Source of the DNA: Parietichytrium sp. I65-24A
Taxonomy: Eukaryota > Sar > Bigyra > Thraustochytrida > Thraustochytriidae
Assembly (NCBI GenBank): GCA_012862575.1
Contig: BLSF01000001.1
Coordinates: forward strand, 806,001-870,000
Direction: 5' to 3'
Length of the DNA: 64,000 nt
Shown here: positions 2,123-56,831 of the stretch, piece by piece
Position numbering within the stretch: position 1 is the first letter of the stretch
Layout: each line of letters starts with the position of its first letter
Notes under the pieces: generated by a model
What the model was told of the DNA's origin: nothing
What the model saw: the letters and a program-made list of their open reading frames with translations, nothing else
Database searches by the model: none
Program-made: the position numbers and the translations under genes

Positions 2123-3126
2123 CTTTCTCGTCAACGCTGCTCCCTCGACACACCCAAAACAGCACGACCTCGTTCGCGAGCGCTGCGGCGGGTGCTTGCC
2201 TTTGCTTGTTTGAGCTTTTTACGCTGAGCTTGATGGCACAGCCAAGTCCTATCTCTCTACGCTTGGGCTAAATGTAAAAAGGTGATTTCGTCGTCTTGTG
2301 TGTTGACTGATTGATGGTGGGGATCTGACTTTCTCAGGACGTTCATGTCCACTCCATACTCACAGACTCACACAAGTCTCGAGAGGCAGCACCACAGTGC
2401 CGCAGTGCCACAGTGCCACAGTGTCCGAAATCTGGGCCGTTTCGCTGGCACAGTCCCTTCTAATCCCTTGAACGCTTCTTTCTATCGCTTTCTTGTCTCT
2501 CTTGTTTTTATAGAACCCTTGGACTCCTTTGACACCGTCAAAAACGTCTTCCAATAGTGAAAAGTGAAAAGTGAAAAGTGGCAGATCGGACAATCTTTGA
2601 AATGCTTACGATTTTGTGGAACGTTTTTCCGGAACGATTTTCAAGTGTAGAGAGTGTTACATATAGTGACCATTAGTAAATATTATAAACCAGATGGCAG
2701 TCACACACAGATAGTATTAGAAGTATTAGATTCACAAGTGTCCGTTCGTGCTAGCTGGTGCCACGTGCTACTACCGACGGTCTACTAGCTCATAATGTTC
2801 ATGCTATTCGAATCGGTAGCAGTGTCTGAACCGCACTACCGTTCCAAGTTGACACGTTTTGCTGGGAGGTGTCCTCGCTGCGTACACTTTGAGAGTATTA
2901 ATCATTGACACTCGCAGCGGGCGAGACGGGGTGATGCACACGTGGGCTGTTTAGGTTCCGAGGAGAGCTACACGTGGACAGCTCAGTTGGTGGATCGTGC
3001 GAAGCTCCAGTCGAAAGGGTTGCAGACGGTAAAGACAACGCGGGATAAGTTCATTGACATTCTCAATCAAAGGTTTGAGTCATTGATTTATAATTATAGG
3101 GCCGTGGAAACTGCTGTTGGCAGAAG
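2123..3126. other. Divergent intergenic region with short tandem repeats
   Basis: Shared upstream region of the acyl-CoA dehydrogenase (-) and the IQ/TPR protein (+). It holds small tandem repeats: CACAGTGC-like units at about 2391-2425 and GTGAAAA units at 2558-2580. Near the right edge, a GTAAAG at 3029 and an AT-rich TATAG ending at 3099 could be a 71-base intron that joins an upstream open segment to the IQ/TPR frame. That upstream segment has no in-frame ATG, so I did not extend the gene. Confidence 0.5.
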
Positions 3127-6100
3127 ATGCTGCAGCGAAGAGTCGATTGGAAGCAAAGGTATGCCGCTTCCAATGTGTCCATCAAGCAGCAGCGCAGCGC
3201 AGTGATAATTCAGCGAGTCCTGCGCAGGGCTTATGTCCGGGCGCATGTGGTACCCAAGGTGCGCTACTTGAACTATCTTCGGGAGGTGATTGGCCTAGAT
3301 CAAACTTTTCAGATGCTCTGCAAAGTTCAATGCGACATTGAGGGGAGGAAGCGACAGGGGTACGATCTCTTCAAGCACCAGCCATCAAAGGTTATCTATG
3401 GCTGCCTTATTGAAGAGCTCACTTGCGAGGTGAACTCCACGAGCGAGCAATACGTGTTTGCTTACAGACCAGACGCACTCAGGATGGGTTACTTTTTAAA
3501 TTTTTGTAGAGACTGCCAGCTGTTCTGCAATAACGTTACGATCGGGAGGTGCGTGGAACTCTTTCGTCAGTTCGCAACCAAATTTACATCTTTTGGTGAA
3601 GTCGATGATACCCCTCTTCAAAGACAGTGGCTTGACAGGGTTGGTTTCGAATCGATTATTGAAGAGCTCAGCGTGGCAACAGGTTACGAATCCCCGGATC
3701 GATTCTTCGATGTTAAAATTCGGCCAGCGATGGCGGACGCGCAATTCTCAAACGTTTTTGGCGCAAACTCGAGCATAGGGCAGCTTTTTCTCTTTCCTTC
3801 GACAGTGGAGCTCTTGGTCAAGCATGAGAGTGTAATGAAGCCCCTCTATGTCTATTATGCCACGCAGGAGATGTTGAGGCTCGCGCATCAGAGGCTCACC
3901 TGGGACGAGGTGGCCAATCGCGGCAAGGAAAACGGTATGAAGTATAGCGCATTTGTGCAGCTTCTCAAAGACTTCAATGTGGCTCCCGGGTTGGTAGGTT
4001 ACTCTATCTACTCCACGCTGTATATAGAATCGAGGCAAGGCCACCGCTCTGACCTTCCGTGCCCAGAGTGTAAATATTTTCGCGTCGGAAGCTTCAATGG
4101 AAACAGGTGTAGGATGTGCTATATACCAAGAAAACAGCGAGGATTTGAAAACTTGAGCGCCGTTCGACAAGCATTTTGGGAGACGGCAGCCGCACCTGGT
4201 CTCGTCGCTCCAGAAACTCTTGCAAGATTTCAAGATGATGATTTGAGTGACAGCGAAGATGAGGAAGACGAACAGGAAGAAGTTGCTGCGGCGAAAGAGA
4301 GCGACGAAGAAGATATGGTTCAAGAAGCCCAGGGCAAAACTGGTACCCTCACAAGTGATAGAATCGCCCTGCATCAGAGTGAAGGTGAAGACACTGGAGG
4401 CAGCGCTGAGGAGGATCAAGGAGCTGGACTGGACACCAATAGTGACGATGCTGGAGAGGATCGTTTTGTGGACGACGATGGCGGCACTCCGAGGCCAGCC
4501 TCCCAAATTTCAGGGTCCTCGGTGCACGAGGGCGATGCAGAGGCAAGTGAGGAAAACAAAGAGGAGTCAGCCCAGGCAACCATACAGAAATTTTTTGGTG
4601 TAACTCCAAAACCGGTAAAAAAGCGCAACAGGAGACTCAGCTTCGTTGAAATGGATGAGAAACTCGAGCTCGAAGGAGAAGAAATAGCTTTGCTCGACAC
4701 CAGCGAAGCCAGCGGAGGCATTGAAAGAGTTCTTCGGTTGTTTTACAGAGGTTGCACGGCGGAGATGAAGCGCTTACAGCAGACGTCTATCCGACTACGG
4801 GACATGCTCTTGCCTGCCAAGTTCGTCAACTTTGCAACCTTTGACAGCCATTTAAGGCGCGTGGAGATGCAGCATCAAATTCTCGATGAATACAATTTGA
4901 ATCTGCCGGAATTTATGCTTTGCATGGCCGGCGTGGCTAGGGCTGCATTCCACCCTCAGGAGAGGAAACGCTTGATGGTGGTGGAGGCGGAGGATGTAGA
5001 TGTGCTAAGATCATCTCCAGGAAAATTGGAAAACTTTCTGATGCTCTTGAATCAACATTATCGTGAGCTGTTTGGGGTGTCCTTCATTGAAAAGAACGAA
5101 GAGGCTAAGATCAAGCCTGACGAAGGGCTTCCAGCTGTGCAGAAGGAGCTTGATGCACTTTTACAAAAGATTTTCTACCAATATGCCAAGCTTGACTCGC
5201 CTCTGGATCTTGACTTTGTCAGCTTTGAAACCTTTCATCTCTTTGCAAAGGAGAGCACATGCTTCAAGACACTGACTTGGGAGCAGGTGGATGATGCAGC
5301 CGTTTCCGCCGCTTCCAAGCTTTATGTAGAGAGAGAGGACGCACAGTCGAGCGGAGACTCAGAGCAGAACCTGGTCCTGCTGCAGCAGCGAGCGATGGTG
5401 ATGCGTGTGAATCAAAATATAGGCGATGGCAAAGACGAAGAGACTGGGAAATTGTCGATCATGAAAACCATGCAGCAGGAAGAGAAGGTGGAGACTCAAA
5501 AAGCTGCCAAGGGCTTGGAGTCGCGTGACTTTTTCCACGCAGTTGACCTGCTCTTCTACCAACAGGCATGCAACGAGCATGGCGTTGAATCAAGCGCGAA
5601 CCACGAGTGGTATCAAGACAGTCGGCATTCGTCGATGGGGATCTCTCCCGAAGGGAAGGTGAAGAGGTCGGCCCTAGAGAGGCTCACGATTGTTTTTCAA
5701 TATTATCAACCAGCTTCTCGAGACTTTGATCGAGCAGCCAACTCGTATAAACCCAAAGGTCTTTTGAGTTGCCAAATTGAAGATCACAACAAAGGTATGC
5801 GAAAGGGGCTCTTACAAAAGCGAGGGGCAAAAACTTCTCAAAAGGTTAACTTGGCAGCATTGCAGGAACAGGAAAATCCTGACGCTCTGCTTGAGAACAA
5901 AAAGCTCCACACAGCCACGAAAAAGGTGACAGAAAACATCGAGTCAAAGACTGTCTACGGTGCTCTGCTCCAAGTGTTGAAATCGGAGCGCGTAAATCCA
6001 GGATCAACACAGATAGAAGCAGTGCAGCAAACAGAGGGTCAGCAGCGCGAGATAGGTTTGAGAATCCCCATCTTCGGAGAGCAGGGTAAAAAATGGTCTG

Positions 6101-33163: not shown

Positions 33164-33725
33164 TGCCGCTGGCTGGAGCGAGAAGGTAAATCACGAAAGG
33201 CCGGATATAGAGAGCTCTTTCTGTACCGCCAGGCAAGCTTGGCCAGGCCAGACCGGACAAAGCAAGAACGAGACGAGTACGAGTACAGTACTCAACGTCT
33301 TGCGACACGAGAACGTGAGGAAGGAAGGAAAGGAAAGAAGAAACCACGCAAAAGTGTGCGACTTCGCTTGATCAGCGAACCGGATTGTGCGGCAGTGAGA
33401 CAGACATAGACTCTTTTCGCACTGGCACCGCTGTGCTCTGTTCGAACACGACGACACACCTTCATAGAACACATCCTGACGTCCATTTTTCGGACAGCAA
33501 AACCCAAAAAGACAACCGACCAAATCGCCAGCAAGCCCGGCAAACTTGCAGACCCGCTCCGACCGTTGCTTGTCTCAAACTGGTCGCGAAGAGATCAGAA
33601 AGCAATCGTCAGTTGCAAAAATAGAATCAGTTGAAGCGGCGCCAGCACGTTCTCACAGTCTCCAAACTGCGCAGCAGATCAATTCCAACGCGCGTTTGAC
33701 CAACGACGAGCTCAACCGACACACA

Positions 33726-34733
33726 ATGACACAGTCTTCTGCCCTGGACGTTGCCTCACTGGCCTTTCTTGCCCTACTCTCAGGGGCGAGCAACACCCAG
33801 AAGAACAACTACATCGCCTCATACAGCCCACAACTTTGCCAGCCGCAGCAGCAGCAGCCCAACACCGCAAAGTTTCTCAGCCACGGCTTCCACCAGCAGC
33901 CGCACCAGTCTGCGCAGCAACACATGCAGCTCTTCAAGCACAACCAACAACAGAGCAACACAATCACGGACGCTCTGAACGAGTTGCTTGTTCGATGCAT
34001 TTCTCCAAACACCTCCTCCGCTCACCAAGCACACCAACACCCCGTCTACGTCAAGACCGAGACCTCGGAACCGTTCTCATCTCAAACCTTCGACAGGAAG
34101 CGCCGCTACTCGGACCTCGACTCCTGCCCGCACTCCCCGAGCTCCCATGCTTCCAGAGACTGCGACTCTGACGCATTCCCCACGGTTGCCTTCCAGCACC
34201 AGCAGAGCCTCGCGCAGATGTTGGAGCTCGGCAAAAACTTTCCTGGCCTTCCAAAGCTCGAAGCCATGAGCATGCATTCTTCTCCTTCTGCAAGCGACGA
34301 CATCGAACAAAGCGGGGCGTACAAACGCGCAAAGAGGTCAAGAGGCAAGCTGTGCCTCATGAATGGCTGCGATAAGCTAGCTCGCGGCCGCGGCCTGTGC
34401 AAAAAACACGGAGGAGGCCGCAGATGCCAGGCTGACGGCTGCAAGAACAGCGCCCGCGGAGGATCACATCTTTGCACTTCGCATGGCGGAGGCAGAAGGT
34501 GCCAATTCGAAGGCTGCTGCAAGGGTGCCGAGGGAGCTACCTTCTTCTGCGTCGCTCACGGAGGAGGCAAGCGATGCAATATGACTGGCTGCACGAAAAA
34601 GGACCAGGGCAAGGGCTTTTGCAAAGCGCATGGCGGCGGTAAGCGCTGCGGAGTGCAAGAGTGTTCCAAGAGCGCAAAGTCTGGTTCGGAGTTTTGCACC
34701 GCTCACTACAAGAGGATCTCCACCGACGAGTAG
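33726..34733 (+). CDS. Five-finger CxxxxC..CxxH protein ("WRKY19-like"), probable DNA-binding
   Basis: 335 residues from the ATG at 33726; the frame is open upstream only from a TTG. The N-terminal 200 residues are Gln/His/Ser-rich (QPQQQQP, HQQPHQSAQQH) and probably act as a disordered activation-type region. A basic patch KRAKRSRGK (about 200) could be a nuclear signal. Then come five near-identical units with spacing C-x4-C-x9/10-C-x2-H joined by GGGRRC or GGGKRC linkers (about 210-328), for example CQADGCKNSARGGSHLCTSH. Stramenopile genomes often carry such arrays labelled as WRKY19-like; they lack the WRKYGQK heptad, which is absent here too. The likely role is a zinc-binding transcription factor, with an unknown target. 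The long CT-rich upstream region suggests a complex promoter. Confidence 0.85.
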   Translation: MTQSSALDVASLAFLALLSGASNTQKNNYIASYSPQLCQPQQQQPNTAKFLSHGFHQQPHQSAQQHMQLFKHNQQQSNTITDALNELLVRCISPNTSSAHQAHQHPVYVKTETSEPFSSQTFDRKRRYSDLDSCPHSPSSHASRDCDSDAFPTVAFQHQQSLAQMLELGKNFPGLPKLEAMSMHSSPSASDDIEQSGAYKRAKRSRGKLCLMNGCDKLARGRGLCKKHGGGRRCQADGCKNSARGGSHLCTSHGGGRRCQFEGCCKGAEGATFFCVAHGGGKRCNMTGCTKKDQGKGFCKAHGGGKRCGVQECSKSAKSGSEFCTAHYKRISTDE

Positions 34734-35172: not shown

Positions 35173-36240
35173 TCAAGCTTTGGAAGCTTGTCGTGTCCAC
35201 ACCTTGAGCCGTTCTGGCTCGGTGATGAAGAAGTCCCTCTCTGCTTTCCACTTCTCCCAGTCGATTGTAGCCAGCTGCGGAAAAGAAGAGACGCTTGTGC
35301 GTGGATCTATGTGTTTCGCATCGACATCTACCAAGCCGCTTCCGTTTACTATGCAGAACAGTGCGTCGCTCTGAGCACTCGATCGTAAAAGGGTCAAGCG
35401 CAAAGCCTTTTCAAGTCCCGGGCTGCCGTCAGTTCCGTTATTCCATAAGATCCCATGTCGGCCGGTTCCAACTCTGACGAGCCAAGCTAAATCTGCCGCT
35501 CGGGATTTCTCCGACCAGTCCTCCAACAGCCGCGCGCAATCAGGATGCACGCATTCGTCGTACGCCTTCAACTCTAGGGGCCGGCTCGTCGATAGCAAAT
35601 GTCTCCATCGCAACTTCACCCACGCCGAGCTCATGGACCCGAGTATGTGAAGCTCCTCTCCTCTGCACCTTGAAAAAATATCTACACACTCGCCATCGTT
35701 CACCTCGTTCTCTGAACTCGCGACGCAAAACCCAGCGAGCAATTCCGCGCCTTTCGTCAGCGTCCCAGCCCAGAGTACGCGCCGCTCCATCGCCACGCTC
35801 CCATCTTGGCGAGTCCAAAACTTGGACACTCTTACCATTGCACCGCTCTTTCTCAACATTTTACCAACCAACGTCCACACCGCGGGAACGGAACAGCTCT
35901 CCGACTGAACTTCCACATGTAACTCCACGCACACCTTCCCTCGCGGCGGCTCCTTCGAGACGTGCTCTGCTAGCCTGCCCAGCACGGCGGCTCGCTCATC
36001 GTCCAAAGAATCGCTATCCACTACGCATAACACGTGTCGGCAGCGCCGCAACGCCGAGGCCAGTTCGCCAGGGCCAGAATGTGGGCCAGAGTTGGAGTTG
36101 GAGTGCCAGTCAAGCTCTACAGGGACTGGCAATCCGACGCCAAGTCGACGAAGGAGCTCGCTTCCCGCAGCGAGGTGCGTCTCCCTGTCCCCGCTGCGCA
36201 GTAGAAGGGCTTTGCCAACGGCGTTCTGCGACATTGACAT
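35173..36240 (-). CDS. Unknown 355-residue protein
   Basis: The start is the ATG at 36240; the frame reaches 36297 only through a TTG. There is no signal peptide, transmembrane segment or recognised domain. The N-terminal half alternates hydrophobic strands and helices (KALLLRSGDRETHLAAG, CRHVLCVVDSDSLDDERAAV, KVCVELHVEVQSES), which suggests a cytoplasmic alpha/beta fold. The C-terminus has DWEKWKAERDFFITEPERLKVW, a Trp-rich helical tail. Codon use is consistent with a real gene. I do not assign a function. Confidence 0.65.
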   Translation of the reverse strand: MSMSQNAVGKALLLRSGDRETHLAAGSELLRRLGVGLPVPVELDWHSNSNSGPHSGPGELASALRRCRHVLCVVDSDSLDDERAAVLGRLAEHVSKEPPRGKVCVELHVEVQSESCSVPAVWTLVGKMLRKSGAMVRVSKFWTRQDGSVAMERRVLWAGTLTKGAELLAGFCVASSENEVNDGECVDIFSRCRGEELHILGSMSSAWVKLRWRHLLSTSRPLELKAYDECVHPDCARLLEDWSEKSRAADLAWLVRVGTGRHGILWNNGTDGSPGLEKALRLTLLRSSAQSDALFCIVNGSGLVDVDAKHIDPRTSVSSFPQLATIDWEKWKAERDFFITEPERLKVWTRQASKA

Positions 36241-37124
36241 TTCGAGCCCAATTCCAATCCTGCGGTCGTTCAAGCCGCAAAAACAAACAATCGGCAACGA
36301 TCTCCGTCTTCGCTCCCAGTCAGCGTCCTCCCCAGCGCGAACTTTCTGAGCACCTTCGCTAACTCAGGCGGGGGATGCCAGATGATGCCAGTGCGCTGCC
36401 AATCCCCAGTTGTGTTGACTTTGCGCGCGAGTACTCGCGAGTACGCCAATGTGCGAGTACTCACCAACAGCAACGCGACAGTTTCGCCGTCCGCGAGTGA
36501 CCCTTTTATTAGTCCTCTGCGCTCCGCAAGGTCGCTTTGTTGACTTTTGACTGCCAAATCCCAAAGAATGAAAGTGCTAAAAAGGTGAGTCAAACAAAGA
36601 AACAAAAGAAGACTTTGAAATACTTTGCTCAAGAAAATTCGAAAAATTGAATTTGTGTTTTGTTAGGTTTGAATTATTACCGGTACTCAGTACACCATTG
36701 TTAGTTGTAAGCTTATGACATACCAGCACAGTAATAGTGCTCCGTGTTCGAATCGGCGGGTAGAGATGACTACCTAAAATTATAGGAGTCGCCATACTGT
36801 GAATGTTGGGGATTGACATTGACATGAATGAAGACAATCGCGCTCACATTAACATCAAGATCACAGACGATGCATGGAGAGGAGAGCAGAGAATGAAAGA
36901 GAGAATGAAAAGAGAGAGAGAGAGAGAGAGAGAGAAAGATTGGAGCGTGGCACGTCTCGATACAATGGGAAGAGAACTTTCGCTTCAAAAGAGATGACGA
37001 GAGAGTTGGAATGGCCGCTACAGCTGCCAGAATAAGGTCGTTCTGCGAGCAATTAAAGTGCGGATCTGTCTGCTGACACCGGACGACGGGCTGTGTCTCC
37101 TTTCGCGGTTCTCAGGAAAGAATT
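36241..37124. other. Intergenic with GA run and GTAC palindromes
   Basis: GTACTCGCGAGTAC (36431-36444) is a perfect 14-base palindrome next to two further GAGTAC words. GGTACTCAGTAC lies at about 36681-36692 and a GA microsatellite at about 36909-36936. No gene. Confidence 0.55.
36909..36936. repeat. GA microsatellite
   Basis: About 28 bases of GA repeats between the unknown 355-residue gene and the seven-helix protein. Confidence 0.85.
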
Positions 37125-38417
37125 TCAACAGCTGGAGCTGGACCCGAGCTTGGTAGTGAGGACAATCAAGCTTATCAATCCCGAGACCATGCGAAAAAGT
37201 AGGGAAATGGTGACATCGATCGAGTTTCCCATGCGAAGGTTAATCCGGCGAGCATCCAGACTCACTGTAAACATGTTCAGCAGATACCGATCGCCCAAGT
37301 CCTCTTGCTTCAGCTCGAACGGAGAAGGAATCAGCCGGGAGAGTACGTGTGGAAGCTCAGAAGCCCGATTGTTTGCCATTGCAGCAGGGATGCAAAGAAC
37401 AACAATCGACAACACCACGGAGATGAACCAAGATAACTCCATTAAAATCCGTGAGTCGCTAAAATCTGCGTTGATGAAATCCGCCACCAAAAGAACGATG
37501 CACAGCCCAAACCCCACAAGAATAACCAGCCCTGGTGCGCTGGTGACTTTATTAATTGTTTGCACAAAATCGCACAGGTCATAGTATGGGACGGTAAACG
37601 CCGCCAGCACCTCTTTCAACTCACTAATTGGCAATTGCTCCCTCTGAATGAGCGCAGCTTCTCTTAATAGCGCTTTGTATCTGCCCGCAGTACTGAATGA
37701 GGTGATCGCAAGAAGTGTGAAAGACAACCCAAATGTCAAGGTGAAACACGGCACAACCGCCAGACAGACAAATAGTGCTAGATTCCAAGTCTCTTCCTCG
37801 GATGATGTGCGAAGAAATGGGCTCAGTCGACCTAGCAAAGAAGACTTGATGGATGCCACAAACAAAAATACATCTTCCAAGAATATTGGGACCAAAATCG
37901 TCAGCCACACGCATGCCTTGAGAACAGATCGAAATCGCTGTTCCTGCCATTCATTTCGCGGAGTGGCACTGAAAATCTGGAATACCACGCAATTCTCCAG
38001 CGTCGGGGAAAACCACACAAACCAAATTTGCAGGCCGGCTATAGTCGACATCCACAGCGCACACACAAGCTGGAATTGAAGATTTTCCAAAAACTCCTGG
38101 TTACCTGAAGTAAAATCAAGAAAGGTGCCAATGAGCAACACAATTACGAAAGTCGCCATATAAAGACACCGTATATATCTTGAGACATTGTGTACACGTC
38201 GCCATCGCGACTCTTGGCACAGCGGAAGCAACCCAGCAAGTTGCATAAAAAATATATACAAGCGCACCTCCCGAGCCCTCAAGTCCGTCTTAAACTCTTC
38301 ATCCTGCACTTTTCGCCGTATTCTCTCTTTGAGCATCTCCACTTTTGACTTGCTGCCATCGTCCGGTTCCGGCGCCGGCGCAACTGCAAGAATCGTTCTG
38401 TGTCCTTTCCTCCACAT
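37125..38417 (-). CDS. Seven-helix protein with insect gustatory-receptor layout (GRL-like)
   Basis: 430 residues from the ATG at 38417. The frame reads on to 38510 from a GTG, and a strong donor GTAAGT (38504-38499) hints that an upstream exon may supply a different N-terminus. I see seven hydrophobic helices at about 84-102, 114-136, 166-190, 212-240, 294-314, 328-347 and 399-423. The N-terminus is long and basic (no signal peptide), the loop between helices 4 and 5 is 53 residues and amphipathic, and a 50-residue polar stretch separates helix 6 from helix 7. This is the topology of the 7tm_7 gustatory/odorant receptor family: N-terminus inside, cytoplasmic anchor helices between 4/5 and 6/7. 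Before helix 1, FFMQLAGLLPL and RWRR resemble the F-x-x-x-G-L-x-P opening of these receptors. The TY-x-x-x-x-Q motif of insect helix 7 is not kept, as reported for distant protist homologues. A ligand-gated channel role is inference. Confidence 0.6.
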   Translation of the reverse strand: MWRKGHRTILAVAPAPEPDDGSKSKVEMLKERIRRKVQDEEFKTDLRAREVRLYIFFMQLAGLLPLCQESRWRRVHNVSRYIRCLYMATFVIVLLIGTFLDFTSGNQEFLENLQFQLVCALWMSTIAGLQIWFVWFSPTLENCVVFQIFSATPRNEWQEQRFRSVLKACVWLTILVPIFLEDVFLFVASIKSSLLGRLSPFLRTSSEEETWNLALFVCLAVVPCFTLTFGLSFTLLAITSFSTAGRYKALLREAALIQREQLPISELKEVLAAFTVPYYDLCDFVQTINKVTSAPGLVILVGFGLCIVLLVADFINADFSDSRILMELSWFISVVLSIVVLCIPAAMANNRASELPHVLSRLIPSPFELKQEDLGDRYLLNMFTVSLDARRINLRMGNSIDVTISLLFRMVSGLISLIVLTTKLGSSSSC

Positions 38418-46911: not shown

Positions 46912-48591
46912 TCATTCGCGGAAGTGGACTGGTTTGCAGAATAATATCCGGATTGTTTGTCTCGCATTTCTTTTGAAGAAATCGGACAAGGATCCCGAGC
47001 GCGCACCGGCCTCTGGCTTATATTCGTAGTTAAAGACGTGTCGGAGGTCCTCCATACTGACGCCCATAGTCTCTGGCTGGAGGAAAATCACGCACGGAAG
47101 CACAACGACAAAGTTTATTACAAAGGCGAACATGACTGTCACCGCGAAGCCAGCGACAGCATCGAGCTCATGAAAAGCGAAATCGCCAAAGACAATATTG
47201 GAAAACATGTTGGTCGAAACCGCAAGCGACATTCCGATGCCGCGCTGGGAGATACCCCAGCTCTCGGCAGGGACAACCCATCCGATCGATCCCCAGCAAA
47301 CGGAAAACACGACCTGAAACACAAAGATCAACACTACCGTGAAAGTCTGAATGCTGTGAGTCTGTCCTTCCGCGTCGCTCTTTGTCACATCCGACCCTGT
47401 TCCAAAAATGGCAACCGAGTTGACAAGAAAAACAGTGCAAATGATAATGGTGCCCCAAAGCGTCATGAATTTGCGCCCGAGGCGATCAACTGCAAATATC
47501 GAGAGCGCGGTGGCAAGCCAGTGGGTAAGCTTGAGAGCTAAATCGTACCTAAATGGGTCGCAGCCGAGCGAGCTGAATAATATGGTCGCGTAATTCATAA
47601 ACCAATTGATTCCCGTCACATTCTGACAGAACGCGACAGATACACCACACAGTGTGGAGGAGATTGCGGTTCCACGGAAAAGGTCGGCAAAGTTGGGACC
47701 AAGGCCCTTTTGGGCCTCCTTCAATTCTTCCCGCATAGCCTCCAGTTCAGATGAGACAATGGTCTCCCTCTGGAGTGTTCCCCTTGCCAACAAAGTCAGA
47801 GATTTTTCTGCCTCGCCCACTCGGCCGGATGCCATCAAGTACCGCGGGGACTCTGGCAAGATTGTCAACGTCATAATGAAAATGAAGAGGCAAGGAATGC
47901 ATTGAAGCCCAATACCCAATCGCCAGCCCCAAGGCACGTCCTGCATTGCCTCGTTGTACAGCGCCATGACAGCAATACCTGTTACTATGAAGAGCTCGAA
48001 AAATGTGATGACTTTGCCGCGATAGGATGGCGGGGCAAGCTCTGCCGAATATATGGGAACGATGGTCAGCATGAATCCGTTTCCGACTCCGCACAGACAC
48101 CGCCCCAGCAAAATAGAGATCCACGCTGAGTCGTGGTTGGCGAGGCCCGCCACAGACTGCCATCCAGCGCCGAGGAAGAACAAAGCGCTAGCACCTAAAA
48201 GAACCTTTCTTCGCCCAAATCGATCCGCTAGCATGCCAGACACAGGTGCCCCAAGCAACGAAGTCACATGGAAAAGCACGGCGAAGAGGCTAATTTGAGC
48301 GGCAACTTTCGGCGAGTCGCCATTGTTGCTTTTCAGTCTCGGAATTCCCATATCATCTCGAAACCAATCCATGCTCGTCACTGCCGTGGTGCCTATATCC
48401 AGCCCAAACGTGCTCCCGCCAAGCACCGCCGTGAACAGTGCCAGAATAGTAAAGCAATTCAGCCCTCTTTCCGAAGCGCCAGAACTTCCTCCGCTCTCTG
48501 AGCTATAACGTCGCTGCTTCTTGTCGCTTCCCAAAAGCGGATCCGACTCCTGAACCGCATTTTCAACAGCCGCCTTGTGCGTTCCCAGCAT
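46912..48591 (-). CDS. Sugar/proton symporter family (MFS) transporter 1
   Basis: 559 residues with the twelve hydrophobic helices of the sugar-porter family. Motifs in order: GGSTFGLDIGTTAVTSM (helix 1), DRFGRRKV (loop 2-3), GRCLCGVGNGF and SAELAPPSYRGK (helices 4-5), PESPRYL (after helix 6), QNVTGINWFMNY (helix 7), VDRLGRKF (loop 8-9) and PETMGVSMEDL at the C-terminus. The N-terminus carries a cytoplasmic extension with SDPLL and a Ser-rich patch that could act in sorting (inference). It is the most diverged of the three copies here: its loops differ while the motifs match. It probably imports hexose at the plasma membrane; direction and substrate are not shown by sequence. Confidence 0.9.
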   Translation of the reverse strand: MLGTHKAAVENAVQESDPLLGSDKKQRRYSSESGGSSGASERGLNCFTILALFTAVLGGSTFGLDIGTTAVTSMDWFRDDMGIPRLKSNNGDSPKVAAQISLFAVLFHVTSLLGAPVSGMLADRFGRRKVLLGASALFFLGAGWQSVAGLANHDSAWISILLGRCLCGVGNGFMLTIVPIYSAELAPPSYRGKVITFFELFIVTGIAVMALYNEAMQDVPWGWRLGIGLQCIPCLFIFIMTLTILPESPRYLMASGRVGEAEKSLTLLARGTLQRETIVSSELEAMREELKEAQKGLGPNFADLFRGTAISSTLCGVSVAFCQNVTGINWFMNYATILFSSLGCDPFRYDLALKLTHWLATALSIFAVDRLGRKFMTLWGTIIICTVFLVNSVAIFGTGSDVTKSDAEGQTHSIQTFTVVLIFVFQVVFSVCWGSIGWVVPAESWGISQRGIGMSLAVSTNMFSNIVFGDFAFHELDAVAGFAVTVMFAFVINFVVVLPCVIFLQPETMGVSMEDLRHVFNYEYKPEAGARSGSLSDFFKRNARQTIRILFCKPVHFRE

Positions 48592-49371
48592 ACTAGCTCC
48601 TCAACCCTTCCCTTTCTCTTTAACCAATAATCTGGATCCTCCTTCTTTCTGCTCTTGCGCCAACTCCGAGACGCCTCTCGCCAGATCCGCGAGGACACGT
48701 ATCCTTTACTAACTGCAACTATCGTGCACTAATGCCGCTCTTCACCGTACAAGTGGCGGTAGCGGCGATGAAGTATGTAACTGTCCTCGCTCAGAGCGTA
48801 CCCCTAAGACCCGTAAGCTACAACTTGAAGTCAAGTAGCAGATACTTTAAGAGCTTCCGATCACTTCTGATTAGCCTAAGTGTGACCTATAGATCAGTAC
48901 TAGTAGTGCTATGATAGTAAGAGTAATGCTAGTGCTATTCTCTATTTATAGATCGATGTATTTATGTGTTTATCTATGTCTCTCATTATCTCTTCGAAAC
49001 GAAAGACGATGACGCGATGATGAAAGAGAATGAATGAATGAATGAATGAACGGAATTGACTGTGAACCAATTCGACAATTCTTTTTCGTTCAAGACAAAA
49101 AGTCTTCCACTTTTGCTGTGCGTTTTCCAGGGATATATGCGTAGAGAATCGCAGGCGATGAGTGGTCCGCGATTTCAAAAACTATCAGACTTTGCAGGCG
49201 AGGGACTGATGAAGAATAGATGCGGTGTCTGATGCAGGTGTCGGGCGATACGAGAGCGTATCCATCGCGTTGATGACGCGCTCTGGTTGGAGAAAGAAAG
49301 GAAGATTTGAAACAACAGCAATAAGTTATAGGATATAAATTATAATAAATTAATGAAACGGATGGCGCCGT
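48592..49371. other. Intergenic between transporters 1 and 2
   Basis: It contains a GAATGAAT run (about 49028-49050) followed at once by the motif ATTGACTGTGA (49055-49065). Part of it should be the promoter of transporter 1 and the 3' end of transporter 2. Confidence 0.55.
49056..49065 (+). repeat. Copy of interspersed motif ATTGACTGTGA
   Basis: Exact match preceded by GAATGAACGGA. It shows the extended pattern GAATGAAC..TTGACWGTGAA seen in other copies. Confidence 0.65.
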
Positions 49372-51030
49372 TTATGCAGTGAGAGCGCTCTCGTGGCCCT
49401 CTGGGAAGCCAAGCCGTGGGTCCGCGGAGCGGCAGGTGTAAATGCGACGAGCCTGCTTTGCGTTCCTGGAGAAGAACTCGGAGAGGGTTCCATGCTTTGG
49501 GTTCTCGTTTCCACCCTTCTCGAAACCGAACACATAGCGCATCTCCTCCATGGTGACTCCCTTGGTCTCTGGCTGGAGGAAGACCACAGTGCTGAGAACG
49601 ATAACGATGTTGAGGATGACGGCTACGAGAGTGGTTCCTGGGAGACCAAGCGACGAGGAGGTCATTGCGTGGAAGCCGTAGTCCCCGAGGGCAATGTTGG
49701 TGGCCATGTTTGCAGCGACTGCAGTGGACATTCCAGCCCCGCGAAGTGCGATTCCCCAAGACTCAGATGGTACGATCCAGCCCACGGTACCCCAGCAGAT
49801 GGCGAAGACAACCTGAAAGAAGAAGATCATGATGACGCAAAAGAGCTGGACAGCCGCGGTGGTCTCATCTGGATTGGCCTGAGTAACCTCAACTCCGGTT
49901 CCATAGATGGCAATGGTGATGGACGCGAATACAATAATAACGAAGGTGGTTCCCCACACAGTCAAGAACTTGCGTCCGAGACGGTCGACGACCAAAAGAG
50001 CTGCAAAAGTTGCAACCATGTTGATACTTTTCAAGATGAGATCGAAGGTGAACGGCTCAAATCCAAGCGAATTGAATAGTACAGTAGCGTAGTTCATGAA
50101 CCAGTTCACTCCGGTAACGTTTTGGCAAAAGGCGATCATGACACCGCAAAGAGTGGATGAGAGAGCAGACCCCTTGAAGAGGTCAAAGAAGCCAGCATGA
50201 CCAGCTTTGCGAGACTCAGCGATCTCTTCGCGCATGTCCTCAAGCTCGTAGTTGACAATCAAGTCGAGGTCAGCAGAGCCGTTGCCAAGGCGGTTGAGCG
50301 CAGTGCGGGCTTCCTCCTCGCGATCCTTGTTCATCAGGAAACGAGGAGACTCTGGAAGCACAAAGACAGTCATAAGGATGATAACAAGGCAAGGAATGCA
50401 CTGAAGTGCAATACCCAAGCGCCAGCCCCACTCGATGTCCTGGACAACATCGTTGACTCCGGCCATAATGACAATTCCGATGGTAATGAAAAGCTGGAAG
50501 AGAGTCACAGTTTTTCCACGGAGGGAAGCCGGGGCCAACTCAGAAGCATACAGGGGCATAATGGTGAGAACGAAGCCGTTTCCAATTCCACCAATGCTGC
50601 GACCGAGGAGAATAGAGTTCCATCCAAAGGCAGGGTCCACAAGACCTGCGAGTGCTTGCCAGAAAGCGCCGACAAAGAAGAGGGTGCACGCGATGATAAT
50701 CACCGGTTTGCGGCCGTACTTGTCAGTGATGAAGCCGGAGAAGGGGGCTCCAACCAGAGAAGCGATGTGGAAGAGTACGGCAAACATGCTGATCTTGTTC
50801 GCAACCTCCGCGGAGTCGGAAGAACCAGTCTCGAGAACAGGGATGCCCATTTCCACTCGGAAGGTGTCCATACTAGTGATGGCGGTGGTTCCAATGTCGA
50901 GGCCGAATGTGCTGCCTCCCAAGATGGCGGTGAAGAGGACCGCCATGGTGTACCCATTGAGCTTGCGCTCCGGACGTGGCTCCCCGTCCTTGTTGTCCCG
51001 GCTGACCGGTGCGACGTAACCACCAGGCAT
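49372..51030 (-). CDS. Sugar porter (MFS) transporter 2
   Basis: 552 residues, twelve helices. Key segments are GGSTFGLDIGTTAITSM, TDKYGRKPV, GRSIGGIGNGF, SELAPASLRGKT, PESPRFLM (226-233), QNVTGVNWFMNY (303-314), VDRLGRKFL, WIVPSESWGIALRGAGMS and PETKGVTMEEM. In the helix 7 signature of glucose porters (QQ-x-x-G-x-N), the second Gln is Asn here (Gln303-Asn304), while the later Asn309 is kept. It is very close to transporter 3 in protein and nucleotide sequence, so the two arose by a recent duplication. The C-terminal tail (KQARRIYTCRSADPRLGFP) is also shared. Probable role: hexose uptake, proton-coupled by family. Confidence 0.92.
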   Translation of the reverse strand: MPGGYVAPVSRDNKDGEPRPERKLNGYTMAVLFTAILGGSTFGLDIGTTAITSMDTFRVEMGIPVLETGSSDSAEVANKISMFAVLFHIASLVGAPFSGFITDKYGRKPVIIIACTLFFVGAFWQALAGLVDPAFGWNSILLGRSIGGIGNGFVLTIMPLYASELAPASLRGKTVTLFQLFITIGIVIMAGVNDVVQDIEWGWRLGIALQCIPCLVIILMTVFVLPESPRFLMNKDREEEARTALNRLGNGSADLDLIVNYELEDMREEIAESRKAGHAGFFDLFKGSALSSTLCGVMIAFCQNVTGVNWFMNYATVLFNSLGFEPFTFDLILKSINMVATFAALLVVDRLGRKFLTVWGTTFVIIVFASITIAIYGTGVEVTQANPDETTAAVQLFCVIMIFFFQVVFAICWGTVGWIVPSESWGIALRGAGMSTAVAANMATNIALGDYGFHAMTSSSLGLPGTTLVAVILNIVIVLSTVVFLQPETKGVTMEEMRYVFGFEKGGNENPKHGTLSEFFSRNAKQARRIYTCRSADPRLGFPEGHESALTA

Positions 51031-52239
51031 CTTGTTTGGTCTAGGTGCGAACGAACTTGTTTTCTACGATCTCGTGACTTTTCAATGATTCGAGCTTTGG
51101 TCGAGTTGCAGTTTGGGGTTTGCTGATGATGAAATCTCGCTGTTCAGAAGATACGCAGAATGGCCTGCAATTGATGTGCCAAGAGTAGGGAAGAATGTGG
51201 CTCTGAAGCAGGACATAAGGAAGTTTCAGCGTTCTTCAGTAAGTACTACGAAAACGATGGCTTCAGTGGTCGTCTGCGGTCTCCAACTCGCATGAGTACT
51301 GAGTAACAGATGATGTCAATCGTTTAGCATGCTCTGGAAATGAAGTTGCACACCGTTGCAGCCTGAACCCTTTCTTGGAGTGATTTGAAGCTTGAGCCAA
51401 GCAGCTTCTTTCTGGAAGAGCCAAAATTGGGACTTTTTCGGTCGATCTTTAGATCGGAAATTTGCAAATGAAAACACTTTTGCTCTCTCACCCTCTCTTG
51501 TCGAGCTAGTCATGTGAAATGCTTCGCTTTTAGATTACAAGAGCAGACCAAAGCCATGGTTTTGCATTTTTTGTTGCCCTCTGACTCCTTTGATTGACAA
51601 ATATTTTTCTCGCGTTCATTCTCCTATGCGAGCGCTATGAATCGCGAAAAAAAGCGATCTAAATTTCCCTTTTCCCCACCATGTCAGATACTCCCAGCTG
51701 CCACTTCTGTGAGACAGCTGCCCCACTCGAACTTCTTCAGCAGGCACAGCAGATAAGTTATTCCAAAGAGCAATCTTTGGAGCTGGGCATCACCGCTCTC
51801 ACCTAACTTGAACGTACAAAGTTGAACATGCAGTCCGCCTGACTTTGTTCGTGGATCAGAGGGCAAATGAAAGATTTTCAAACTTACCTGTAAGTCAAGT
51901 AATCCATTTTCGCCCATCCGACCTGCTCTCTGTAACACTTCCACCTCAAAGAAAAAATGCACTCGCTTACCCGAAGGCAAGAGCTGGCGTCACGGTATTC
52001 GGCACAATATCGGTATTATTCATTCCCTTGATGCCCTTGATTTCCTCTGCAGACTAGCATCTTTGTGAGCCAAACCTCAGTTTCGGTTAGCTTGGCGCTT
52101 TGGTGATTTAGGTGTGTACTGTACCAGTCTTAAAGGTCTTCGTCCATCTCTCAAGAGACAGACAGACCTTAGTCGGCGATACATTTTTTTTTCATGAGTG
52201 GCTCTCAGTCGTCTCTGATGCCTCATGTGAGTTCATTGA

Positions 52240-52264
52240 AAGAGAGAGAGAGAGAGAGAGAGAG
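52240..52264. repeat. GA microsatellite
   Basis: About 25 bases of GA repeats in the spacer between two sugar-transporter copies. Confidence 0.85.
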
Positions 52265-53298
52265 TGCACGCCGACATTCTGAGCAGCGCTAAGCTTAGCG
52301 GCGCTGGTGGACCGTGCCGTTCGAGCCCTTGATTGCTCTTCGCAGCTTGCTTGCGGAATACCGGAGAGAGAAGGAAACTGAAGAGTGAGAATGTACTGAC
52401 AGTTAATACGCTTTTCCTTTGCTTTGATTTTGGTGTTTCGCCAGCCCCTGAGGACTCAGAGGACTACCTAGAGTCCGCACTCGCGACGGACTGACAGTGA
52501 ATTTCATTGGAGCAGAGGTGTGAGTTTCTTGTTTTCGCCTCAATGGTTGGATGGCGTCAAGTGCTCGTGCATCTGAATTCTGAATGATGGTCGTCTCTCT
52601 GTTGAAGGACATGTTAGATGAATAGATGGAGAGAGGTCGCACGTGGTTAGTACCACTCTAGCTTAGTAGAGGGCCGTCAAGCTACTAGTCTGTGAACATT
52701 CTGTAAGTGTACAGAATGGAGAATAGAAAAAACACTGCGAGTCGCACAAGAGAAATTCTCATGAAGTGGGTGGGGGCTTTCGCCTTTTAGAAACTAACAG
52801 GTGTGAGAGTTCATGGTCAATCACACACTTCTCCTCAGCACGTTAATCAATGGGAAAGGAAGATCAACAAGGAAGAGTCAACAGAGCAGCTTGCTTCGCT
52901 TGCTGATAATCTTCAACTGCCTGAAGCCTTCGGAACGAGCGCCATTTCCATTCTTCAAGAGCCCCGACTAACGCGTGTTTGTTGTGCTCCGAAAGAGGAG
53001 GGAATAGTTTTCAATTTTACAAATTCCTCGATTGATTGATTGATGAATGAAAGGTTGATGAGAAGAGGGAATGTGTCCATAACACACTGCGCTTTCTTCG
53101 GATACTTCGGATCACAGTTAGTACAGTCGCTACACGAATTCATCTTCTACTCCTAGTGTGCTTGAGTTGTGCGACGCGATCAGTGGATGAAGGCGAATGA
53201 ATTCTCATGACAAGTTCCAACTCTGGCGCAGGCCCTAATGCTATGGATGCCCCCGCGTGCTGGGCTGCTGGCATCGTTGTCGGGTTGTCAGAGAGAAA

Positions 53299-53327
53299 AA
53301 AGAAAGAAAGAAAGAAAGAAAGAAAGA
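53299..53327. repeat. GAAA microsatellite
   Basis: About seven GAAA units. They give Lys/Glu-rich spurious frames. Confidence 0.85.
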
Positions 53328-55112
53328 GGAGTATTCGTACTGCGCCTGCGAAGAGTGAGTCTGTGCTTGGTGATTGGAGCGGGACCGATTGAGAGGATAA
53401 ACTTTCTCGTTTTGAGTCAGCCGATCTTGAGAAACCGCAGAAGAGCGAAATTTATGCTATCCTTTGGCAGAATTGGCGAATGGGACAAACGTAGCGAGCA
53501 GCAGAGCGAGCTAGTTTGGATTGGAAGTACGCTTGAGAAGCGCGTTCCTTCAAAGCTAAAGCTTATGTGCGACGAATTGCATCAAGACTCAGTCCCGTAG
53601 TTTCGATCGGGTTGCTATTCAAGAGCACGCGAGTAAAATTGCTCCAAAAATATTGCGTAAGAAATTTCCATCGAGTGAAATCTCTTTCTTAGACATCTCG
53701 TCTTTGGGATCTTTTTGCACACGTTGGGAAAGCAGAGAACACCAAATGAACTTTCCACGAGTGCCGATTCCGCGAAAGGTTGTTTGAGTCACAAACTGGC
53801 TGCTGCCAGCGTCCAAAACGAGATAGAAACGCCAGCAACTTTACTTGTGAGGCTGAGTTTATCAAGATCGAATACTTCAAATCAAGGCAACCAAACGTCC
53901 GCCAGCGGCTCCTCCAGAATAGCGGTCGTCTGGCCGCCAATGCAGACTTTTGGTGAGCAAGAGGAAGATACAGTTGTTCTCGATGACTCGCAGCTGCGTC
54001 GCCTGTTTGTAAATCTCTAGAACCAAACTACATGAGCTACATGACACAGCAAAACGGATGGATGACACGTTGATTACCACCTGCGACGCAATAGTGACGT
54101 GGTTCGATTTGGTCTCAGATGGAGCTGAAAGACAGAGGACGTCATCTACGGCTTCCGTATGGTAAGTAATGTGCCAGAAGTAACAGAGCACTTCCTTCCT
54201 GGCAGGTTCGATTTCAGAACGAGAGGACGATGGAATGCCACGAATCAGCAGCCGGCGGACGAATCAATATTTGAAGGTAAGCTTCTCAAAACTTTCTTTC
54301 TTCAATATTTTATGTCAAGGTTGGTCAGACCGAGCATGAAAAAGAAAACTGCCGTCCATGACAATGAAGGTCATGGTTGGGAACTGATTACTCTCTGAGT
54401 CGGACAAGCATTCAGATTCCTCGCGATTGACCAATAACAACTATCGTGCAGAGTTTCCGGCTCATAGACACTCGTGGAGTTTGACTTTGCTGGACAATAA
54501 TCAGCGTCGCCGGTGTGCTGACCAAACGTTGCCATTTGGAGAAACTGCGTTGGAGAAAAGAAAGCAAAGAAACGAAGCAAGTTGAAAGCAAAATTTGTGT
54601 GTCGAACGAAGATCTATTTTTAGCTCGTAGAGAGTCCCTCCGTAATCTCCGACACTGTCGGCGCATGAATCGGTCGCAAATAAGACACCTCTAATCTAGA
54701 AGGGCTAAATGAACGGATGCGCTCCGCCAGAGAGGCAGAGTTGCGACTCTGATTTTCACCATTCGCACTCGTGAACTGGCATATGCACGTGTGTAAGCAT
54801 GGCTTGCACTGGCTAGAAGCCAATAACTTTATTTGTGTCAAGCCAACCCAGCCGTAGAGCATTTGCTGGCAATTTTACCATAAAAGTATGCCGATATTAA
54901 TCAAATCATTAACTAGAAAGTAGGGTCAGCGAAACTGCCTGAAGAGTGTGCGTTGAAACTAACGAAAGTGTGACTAGAAATTTCACTAGGATCTTTCATG
55001 AACGAACGAACAACAAATGAGCAAGTAAACAAATGTTTTCTTTTCAAACAGTTGGAATAAAAATATGATAAATATATGGAAACATATACGACCGAAACGC
55101 GCTCGCTGATGT

Positions 55113-56831
55113 TTATGCGACGTTTGCGCGGTCAGAGTTGTGCTGCAAGTGAGCGAAACCAAGTCTTGGGTCTGCGGAGCGGCAAGTGTAGATGCGGCGA
55201 GCCTGCTTGGCGTTGCGCTTGAAATATTCTCCCAGAGTTCCGTGCTTTGGAGAGTCGCGACCACCCTTCTCGAACCCAAACACATAGCGCATCTCCTCCA
55301 TTGTGACCCCCTTGGTCTCTGGCTGAAGGAAGACGACTGTGCTCAAGACGATGACGATGTTGAGAATTACAGCGATGAGAGTGGTTCCAGCAAGCCCAAG
55401 GGAGGAGGAAGCCATTGCATGGAATCCGTAGTCACCGAGAGCGATGTTGGTTGCCATGTTTGCTGCGACAGCGGTGGACATACCAGCACCACGGAGAGCA
55501 ATACCCCACGACTCGGATGGCACGATCCAACCGACGGTACCCCAGCAGATGGCAAAGACAATCTGAAAGAAGAAGATCATGATGACGCAGAAGAGCTGGA
55601 CAGCAGCGGTCTTGGAGTCAGGATCAGTGTTTGTTACATCCACGCCAGAGCCGTAGATAGCGAGAGTGATGGACAAGAACACGATGATGACAAAAGTGGT
55701 TCCCCACACAGTCAAGAACTTGCGTCCGAGACGGTCCACCACCAAAAGAGCTGCGAAAGTGGCAACCATGTTGATAGCCTTGAGCACCAAGTCAAAGGTG
55801 AAAGGTTCGAATCCGAGAGAGTTGAAGAGCACAGTCGCATAGTTCATAAACCAGTTCACTCCAGTAACGTTCTGGCAGAAGGCAACCATGACACCGCAAA
55901 GAGTCGAAGCGAGAGCAGTTCCCTTGAAGAGATCAAAGACGGTTCCGCTGCCTGCTTTGCGAGCCTCAATAATCTCCTCGCGCATCTCCTCAATCTCAAA
56001 GTTGACAATATCGGTAACGCGAGCGGACCCATGTCCAAGACGAGCGAGAGCGCTACGTGCTTCGTCCTCGCGATCCTGCATCATGAGGAAACGAGGAGAT
56101 TCTGGCAGAATGAAGAGAGCCATCAGAATGATGATAAGGCATGGGATGCACTGAAGAGCAATGCCAAGGCGCCAGCCCCACTCAACATCCTGAATACCCT
56201 CGTTGACGCCAGCCATGATGAGGATTCCGATGGTGATAAAGAGCTGGAACAGGGTTACAGTTTTACCGCGGAGAGAAGCTGGAGCGAGCTCAGACGCGTA
56301 CAGAGGCATGATAGTGAGAACGAACCCGTTTCCGATTCCTCCCAGGCAGCGCCCGAGAAGAATGGACTTCCAGCCAAAGCCAGGGTCGATGAGACCAGCA
56401 AGAGACTGCCATAGAGCCCCGAGAAAGAAGAGGATGCACGCGAGAATAATCACGATCTTACGGCCATACCTGTCAGTGATGAATCCGGAGAACGGAGCGC
56501 CAATCAAAGAGGTAACATGGAAAAGCACCGCGAACAAACTGATCTGGTTTGCGGTCTCAGAGGAATCTGAAGACCCAGAGACGAGCAATGGGATTCCCAT
56601 TTCAGCGCGAAAGGTGTTCATACTGGTGATGGCAGTGGTTCCGATATCGAGACCGAAGGTGCTGCCTCCCAAGATTGCAGCAAATAGAACCGCAATCGTG
56701 TGGCCATTGAGCTTGCGCTCTGGGCGTGGCAAGTTCTCGTCGATTACGTGGTTCACGTAGCCACGAGCATTTTCATCCTGCTCCCCAGGAATTCGCTCCG
56801 TGTCCTTCTTGATGTCTTGCTCGAGAGACAT
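55113..56831 (-). CDS. Sugar porter (MFS) transporter 3
   Basis: 572 residues, twelve helices. It is the closest relative of transporter 2: long blocks between helices 4 and 12 are identical (SELAPASLRGKTVTLFQLF, QNVTGVNWFMNYATVLFNSL, VDRLGRKFLTVWGTTFVIIV). The differences cluster in the N-terminal tail (EQDIKKDTERIPGEQDENAR, acidic and absent from copy 2), the loop after helix 6 and the last residues. The same Gln-Asn substitution is present in helix 7. The differing cytoplasmic tails suggest that regulation or sorting, rather than substrate, has diverged (inference). The ATG at 56831 starts the family-specific N-terminus. Confidence 0.92.
   Translation of the reverse strand: MSLEQDIKKDTERIPGEQDENARGYVNHVIDENLPRPERKLNGHTIAVLFAAILGGSTFGLDIGTTAITSMNTFRAEMGIPLLVSGSSDSSETANQISLFAVLFHVTSLIGAPFSGFITDRYGRKIVIILACILFFLGALWQSLAGLIDPGFGWKSILLGRCLGGIGNGFVLTIMPLYASELAPASLRGKTVTLFQLFITIGILIMAGVNEGIQDVEWGWRLGIALQCIPCLIIILMALFILPESPRFLMMQDREDEARSALARLGHGSARVTDIVNFEIEEMREEIIEARKAGSGTVFDLFKGTALASTLCGVMVAFCQNVTGVNWFMNYATVLFNSLGFEPFTFDLVLKAINMVATFAALLVVDRLGRKFLTVWGTTFVIIVFLSITLAIYGSGVDVTNTDPDSKTAAVQLFCVIMIFFFQIVFAICWGTVGWIVPSESWGIALRGAGMSTAVAANMATNIALGDYGFHAMASSSLGLAGTTLIAVILNIVIVLSTVVFLQPETKGVTMEEMRYVFGFEKGGRDSPKHGTLGEYFKRNAKQARRIYTCRSADPRLGFAHLQHNSDRANVA

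Follow-up and report, generated by a model that had tools for sequence, protein, structure and literature searches.

Gustatory receptor-like (GRL) proteins outside animals are few and scattered, and the survey of Benton et al. (2020; PMC7746228) reports 17 candidate sequences, its published list covering chytrids, an amoebozoan, Thecamonas, Vitrella and two green algae. That survey kept candidates that had most or all of a set of features: a length of about 350-500 aa, seven transmembrane helices, an intracellular N-terminus, inner loops longer than the outer ones and best similarity to a known GRL/DUF3537 family, with no stronger resemblance elsewhere. For animal GRLs the same text gives a motif in the seventh helix, (T/S)Yhhhhh(Q/K/E)(F/L/M), which it treats as diagnostic but not definitive; many insect ORs also deviate from it. 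The plant DUF3537 proteins (PF12056) belong to the same proposed superfamily (PMC7746228), and structural screens described in PMC9998090 place the PHTF proteins, a branch that occurs eukaryote-wide, in the 7TMIC superfamily as well.

How such proteins work is described for insect receptors, in which the motif is TYhhhhhQF (PMC11100771). In BmGr9, according to the same text, helix S7b lines the pore, the first motif residue forms a hydroxyl ring, the tyrosine contacts the head group of a lipid that penetrates the pore, the glutamine swings into the pore on opening and the phenylalanine is the gate. The position of BmGr9 T429 is often charged in insect receptors.

Among the titles and abstracts that our literature searches listed, none described a GRL from a stramenopile or a labyrinthulomycete; the wider survey of Himmel et al. 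(2023, Curr. Biol.) may list the lineage. The terms labyrinthul-, thraustochytr- and stramenopile, along with three genus names, are absent from PMC7746228 and PMC9998090, the latter of which mentions SAR 7TMICs generally under a different spelling. Here we describe a single-exon gene, as read, whose product is probably a divergent gustatory receptor-like member of the 7TMIC/GRL superfamily, judging from its sequence.

Results

The locus holds a single open frame that appears coding

The genome searched comprises 42.5 Mb in 172 contigs, and the window, the whole stretch of 64,000 nucleotides that was analysed, spans positions 806,001-870,000 of contig 1. The gene lies at window positions 37125-38417 on the minus strand, where an uninterrupted frame of 430 codons without internal stop runs from an ATG at 38417 to a TGA at 37127-37125. 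An earlier sequence-only reading had marked a feature at these positions, and the feature proved to be a real, single open frame; its strand is supplied here. The start codon is uncertain, with an out-of-frame ATG 10 bases upstream and an in-frame GTG 93 bases upstream. Scored by codon log-odds against ten neighbouring ORFs, the frame gave +0.094 per codon and was the sole positive one among six, the remaining five ranging from -0.06 to -0.38. The neighbours themselves scored +0.114 to +0.250, so that the gene falls under every one of them, but their scores are favoured because the same ten ORFs trained the measure. The GC3 of the gene (0.543) lies within the range of these neighbours (0.521-0.678). 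By its codon log-odds the ORF appears to be coding. A tblastn search of its own genome found no paralogue, the second of two matches having an E-value of 0.278.

The surroundings of the gene are those of an ordinary eukaryotic contig. A kinesin ORF begins about 0.7 kb away on the opposite strand, and the window also has genes for ATG9, a proline racemase and an acyltransferase. Beside the receptor gene lies a 374-aa ORF (35173-36297, minus strand) with no Pfam match at E<=0.01, and at 33546-34733 on the plus strand we observed a protein with five WRKY19-type zinc-finger stretches (PF24906). Further along the minus strand, three similar sugar-transporter-like ORFs stand within 10 kb (46912-56831); two were checked as Sugar_tr, and the three are a local gene family.

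The protein matches the insect chemosensory receptor profile along nearly its full length

The sequence-only reading had taken the product for a GRL and proposed a 7tm_7 profile search. Against Pfam, the 430-aa protein matched 7tm_7 (insect chemosensory receptor) with an E-value of 7.9e-5 and 22.6 bits, and the match was nearly full length, with residues 52-419 aligned to positions 2-361 of the 370 in the profile. It was the sole match with E below 0.1 among 24,736 families, the next family reaching only 0.45, so that best similarity to the GRL family is seen here by Pfam profiles, as against the reciprocal BLAST of the published survey (PMC7746228). The score nevertheless falls short of the curated cut-off of 26.6 bits for 7tm_7 (PF08395), and therefore the protein is not filed as a curated member of the family.

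Several controls bear on how this score should be read. None of ten control sequences, nine shuffles in 10-residue blocks that preserve local hydrophobicity and one reversal, matched 7tm_7, while five of the ten gave one weak match each to some other Pfam family (best E 0.034), so that 7.9e-5 stands well beyond anything these controls produced. In a six-frame 7tm_7 search of the genome, the ORF ranked first of two scored candidates (E 7.1e-4); the other, at E 0.036, contains two internal stops and by eye lies in low-complexity DNA. As yardsticks, DmGr43a scored 144.1 bits and DmGr64a 66.9 on the same profile, and DmOrco scored 20.1 over its C-terminal part only, which is less than the 430-aa protein and also under the cut-off. 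Orco is a true member with solved structures, so a divergent true member can score below the curated threshold. Because of the shuffle and reversal controls, the genome ranking and the Orco yardstick, a chance match to 7tm_7 is unlikely. Elsewhere in the window, no 7tm_7 match was found in two MFS transporters and ATG9 at E<=10 or in ten other ORFs at E<=0.01.

Neighbouring families in the superfamily did not claim the protein. Trehalose_recp (PF06151), on which DmGr64a scores 572.6 bits, was not listed for it at E<=10, nor were 7tm_6 (PF02949), DUF3537 (PF12056) or PHTF (PF12129), bearing in mind that the HMMER filters drop most matches above 0.1. The best NCBIfam E-value was 1.8, offering nothing useful, and no PDB sequence matched at E<=10.

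Similarity to single insect receptors was weak. Scored against 300 block shuffles, whole-protein alignments to four receptors gave Z-values between 0.3 (for Orco) and 2.9 (for the 8zdz receptor) when the blocks had 8 residues and between 0.3 and 3.9 when they had 15, and a C-terminal fragment of BmGr9 gave about -0.2 and 0.0. With only the C-terminal 140 residues compared, Z ranged from -0.2 to 1.8 over five receptors; Gr64a gave the 1.8, and the other four stayed at or below 1.2. When the protein was compared by hhalign with a profile built from four receptors, it scored 14.1, under at least ten of 100 shuffles and also under the genome's PHTF homologue and five membrane ORFs of the window (ATG9, three sugar transporters and the acyltransferase), which scored 15.2 to 19.2; this profile has little power, since it missed PHTF too. 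Searches for relatives in two contig collections not meant for eukaryote genomes returned 2 pattern stretches in the viral collection and 42 in the genome collection, none of them confirmed.

Hydropathy and charge predict an inverted seven-helix topology

We predicted topology from a hydropathy scan with a 19-residue window and a count of positive charges. As the sequence-only reading had claimed, there are seven strong hydrophobic peaks, the number of helices listed for GRLs (PMC7746228), and the length of 430 aa falls within the published size range. All features lie on the minus strand. A cytoplasmic tail is predicted for residues 1-50 (38268..38417), with 13 K/R, and is followed at residues 51-69 (38211..38267) by a weaker segment, VRLYIFFMQLAGLLPLCQE, that contains the FFMQLAGLLPL opening described earlier (mean hydropathy 1.12) and that may be a re-entrant, S0-like element; it aligns with FMFLAQCVAIMPLVGIRESNPRRV of DmGr64a. 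The strong peaks that follow are S1 (residues 82-100, 38118..38174), S2 (117-135, 38013..38069), S3 (169-187, 37857..37913) and S4 (213-231, 37725..37781), from which a long, predicted cytoplasmic stretch, a would-be anchor, extends to residue 296 and includes a second weaker segment at 270-288 (mean 1.07). After S5 (297-315, 37473..37529) and S6 (330-348, 37374..37430) comes a polar 6/7 loop, residues 349-401 (37215..37373), that would contribute to the anchor and has an S7a-like helix in a low-confidence model. The seventh peak, at 402-420, belongs to the predicted pore helix S7b (402-424, 37146..37214).

Positive charges were concentrated on the predicted inner side. Lysines and arginines numbered 13 in the N-terminal tail, 4 before helix 1 and 4, 6 and 7 in the inner loops, where the 6 of the helix 4-5 stretch were counted as 5+1 around its weak segment; there were 0, 3 and 1 in the outer loops and 1 in the C-terminal tail. 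This pattern fits a predicted N-terminus inside and C-terminus outside, the inverted plan of insect chemoreceptors, and the positive-inside count thus agrees with the intracellular N-terminus listed for GRLs (PMC7746228) and with the orientation that the sequence-only reading had expected of a topology prediction. The predicted inner loops (33, 65 and 53 residues) are longer than the outer ones (16, 25 and 14), again as in the published list (PMC7746228). The 4/5 loop is indeed long, as was noted before, but it measures 65 residues by our boundaries rather than 53; the polar 6/7 stretch is likewise present, with 53 residues where 50 had been given.

The pore-helix motif is partly conserved and in register

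Near the C-terminus the protein carries S416-L417-IVLTT-K423-L424, in which three of the four named motif positions are kept in the register of insect receptors. The motif tyrosine is replaced by L417, and two of the five positions described as hydrophobic are threonines. Two MAFFT alignments set this stretch, gap-free, on TYLVILIQF and TYELVLLQF. The Pfam match ends at V419 (profile position 361), which by our own count from the match ends puts S416 on position 358, where Gr43a has the motif threonine; K423 and L424, extrapolated past the match end, would occupy positions 365 and 366, the Q and F of Gr43a, with L424 at the gate leucine of Orco. When residues 401-430 were shuffled 100,000 times, three or more of the four named positions recurred at that register in 0.33% of the shuffles and at any position in 7.5%. 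Another three-of-four match, at residue 320, arose by chance outside any hydrophobic helix. These data suggest that the pore-helix motif is partly conserved in the right register, which supports kinship with gustatory receptors. The most distinctive detail of the protein is that two predicted pore positions are occupied by basic residues, R409 and K423.

Structure models are too poor to assign a fold

Single-sequence AlphaFold2 gave mean pLDDT values of 40.6 for the whole protein and 41.3 for residues 45-430, both too poor for a fold. Comparison of the first model with PDB chains gave nothing above Z 4.9, which is not meaningful for so poor a model, and the best chain for the second was human XPR1 (Z 5.2 over 109 residues, rmsd 4.8), again from a model too poor to trust. 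Neither an Orco nor a gustatory receptor chain was among the matches listed, which is uninformative with models at pLDDT of about 41. The first model contains separate helices at 377-393 and 399-425, at low confidence; they resemble the split seventh helix of the superfamily, although this is weak evidence.

The host genome also encodes a PHTF homologue

A PHTF1/2 homologue (PF12129) was found elsewhere in the genome, scoring 47.3 bits, above the cut-off, when the genome was searched and 43.8 bits by hmmscan. The match lies on contig C91 (67512-67847) in an open frame of 902 aa (916-3336 on the plus strand of locus L009, running past the locus end). A second PHTF match, on contig C7, was below the cut-off (19 bits, E 0.0245). 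With the GRL-like gene, two distinct branches of the superfamily, in the sense of PMC9998090, are thus represented in the genome. Neither 7tm_6 nor DUF3537 matched in the genome, but they matched in none of the control genomes either, so that absence is not implied.

The genome gave some indication of the kind of host. It contains IFT46, a ciliary gene (302.7 bits), and no chlorophyll-binding protein at E<=0.001, a search in which the cyanobacterium among 14 control genomes did match; the host is thus probably a protist that lacks photosynthesis and forms a cilium at some point in its life. For the role in a zoospore or vegetative cell that the sequence-only reading put forward, IFT46 says no more than that the host carries a ciliary gene. 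A sequence for the LABY-A primer had 0 exact sites, but only the 3' part of the 18S was read, and the result therefore says nothing about lineage. Pieces of 18S rDNA from its 3' end lie at the end of contig C16 and on C61, and on C16 the rDNA stretch is preceded by what by eye is retroelement polyprotein-like sequence; the rDNA therefore seems broken in the assembly. For a PUFA-synthase subunit A model, 18 candidates were scored and 13 matches listed; the strongest, at 143.8 bits, stayed under the cut-off, in a search in which long models may miss. On contig C66 (8562-22499), one uninterrupted frame of 5583 aa shows four matches to the ketosynthase region and three to profile positions 2093-2251 of the omega-3 PfaA model; its product is probably a giant type I PKS or FAS with multiple modules.

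Discussion

By description, the protein resembles the protist and fungal GRLs of Thecamonas, Vitrella, Protostelium and Spizellomyces (PMC7746228), which have 350-500 aa, seven transmembrane helices, an inside N-terminus, longer inner loops, a partial TM7 motif and few introns. With the insect gustatory receptors Gr43a, Gr64a and BmGr9 (PF08395, PF06151) it shares the nearly full-length 7tm_7 match and a motif in which S-L-IVLTT-K-L stands in place of T-Y-hhhhh-Q-F, and in both it and Gr64a the S0-like segment is followed by RRV, although identity to Gr43a and Gr64a is only 16 and 22% in the MAFFT alignment. It differs from these receptors in the lost tyrosine, in K for Q, in R409 where BmGr9 has T429 and in the missing Trehalose_recp match. 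Insect Orco (PF02949) has a leucine at the gate position too and a similar 7tm_7 score, but its 7tm_6 profile was not listed for our protein. The same holds for the plant DUF3537 profile and for PHTF, of which this genome has a homologue in a long ORF of its own. Publications have described GRLs of unicellular eukaryotes since 2020, and the protein is probably a divergent further member.

The main challenge to this placement is that an unrelated multi-helix membrane protein, a transporter or an orphan, might resemble 7tm_7 by chance through its hydrophobic pattern. The sub-threshold profile score, the weak pairwise and hhalign results and the XPR1 match would all suit such a protein, the last coming from an untrustworthy model. 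We consider this improbable, as shuffles that keep hydrophobicity never matched 7tm_7 (0/9, and 0/1 for the reversal), the ORF ranked first of the two candidates scored in the genome, the match is nearly full length and the motif register fits. A foreign gene, animal or otherwise, that entered the assembly as contamination is far less probable still: the gene is single-copy by tblastn and relatives were not found, as contamination might predict, but it is embedded in a contig at least 870 kb long among kinesin, ATG9 and proline racemase genes, its GC3 lies within the range of its neighbours, its codon log-odds are positive and it has no introns as read. The kinship with gustatory receptors read earlier from the sequence therefore gains support from the 7tm_7 match and its controls, the N-inside topology and the partial motif.

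Whether a divergent GRL of this kind conducts ions is a separate matter. A true homologue that is non-conducting, serving as a scaffold or a lipid-handling membrane protein, is unlikely but deserves more weight than either of the alternatives above. It would fit the loss of the tyrosine that in BmGr9 contacts the pore-penetrating lipid (PMC11100771), the basic R409 and K423 at predicted pore positions and the threonines in the hydrophobic part of S7b. Against it, the motif retains its polar residue at S416 and its hydrophobic gate residue at L424, and many insect ORs depart from the motif too (PMC7746228). Given the homology, we lean towards the GRL also being a ligand-gated channel.

By analogy with the solved insect receptors, from which tetramer, pore and gating are taken (PMC11100771), four subunits would assemble through an intracellular anchor made of the 4/5 and 6/7 (S7a) stretches, and four S7b helices would form the wall of the pore on the extracellular side. 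Binding of a small molecule among S1-S6 would shift S5 against S7b and open the gate, which would alter membrane potential or calcium. In such a pore, going by the alignment, S416 would keep the hydroxyl ring, L424 would be the gate, as in Orco, and L420 would provide the second hydrophobic constriction. With L417 the contact to the lipid would be lost, and the glutamine and T429 would give way to K423 and R409, respectively. Each of these two basic positions would then place a ring of four positive charges along the ion path of the tetramer. Two such rings are unfavoured in a conventional cation channel, so that the protein may be anion-permeable, differently gated or silent. The boldest form of this idea, a GRL in a protist lineage without a described one (stramenopile or labyrinthulomycete, should the host belong there), its pore rebuilt by R409 and K423 to be anion-permeable or differently gated, strikes us as improbable; against it, the published motif itself permits K at the glutamine position (PMC7746228), and insect receptors often carry a charge at the T429 position (PMC11100771).

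A protist gene that looks distantly akin to the taste-receptor channels of insects is a further sign that the family is much older than animals. Each new GRL lineage bears on whether insect taste and smell receptors originated from an ancestral eukaryotic channel or through gene transfer, and the significance of this one would rise if its lineage and ion selectivity were shown. With one gene copy in a unicellular host, it would offer an uncomplicated setting in which to find out what such a channel senses.
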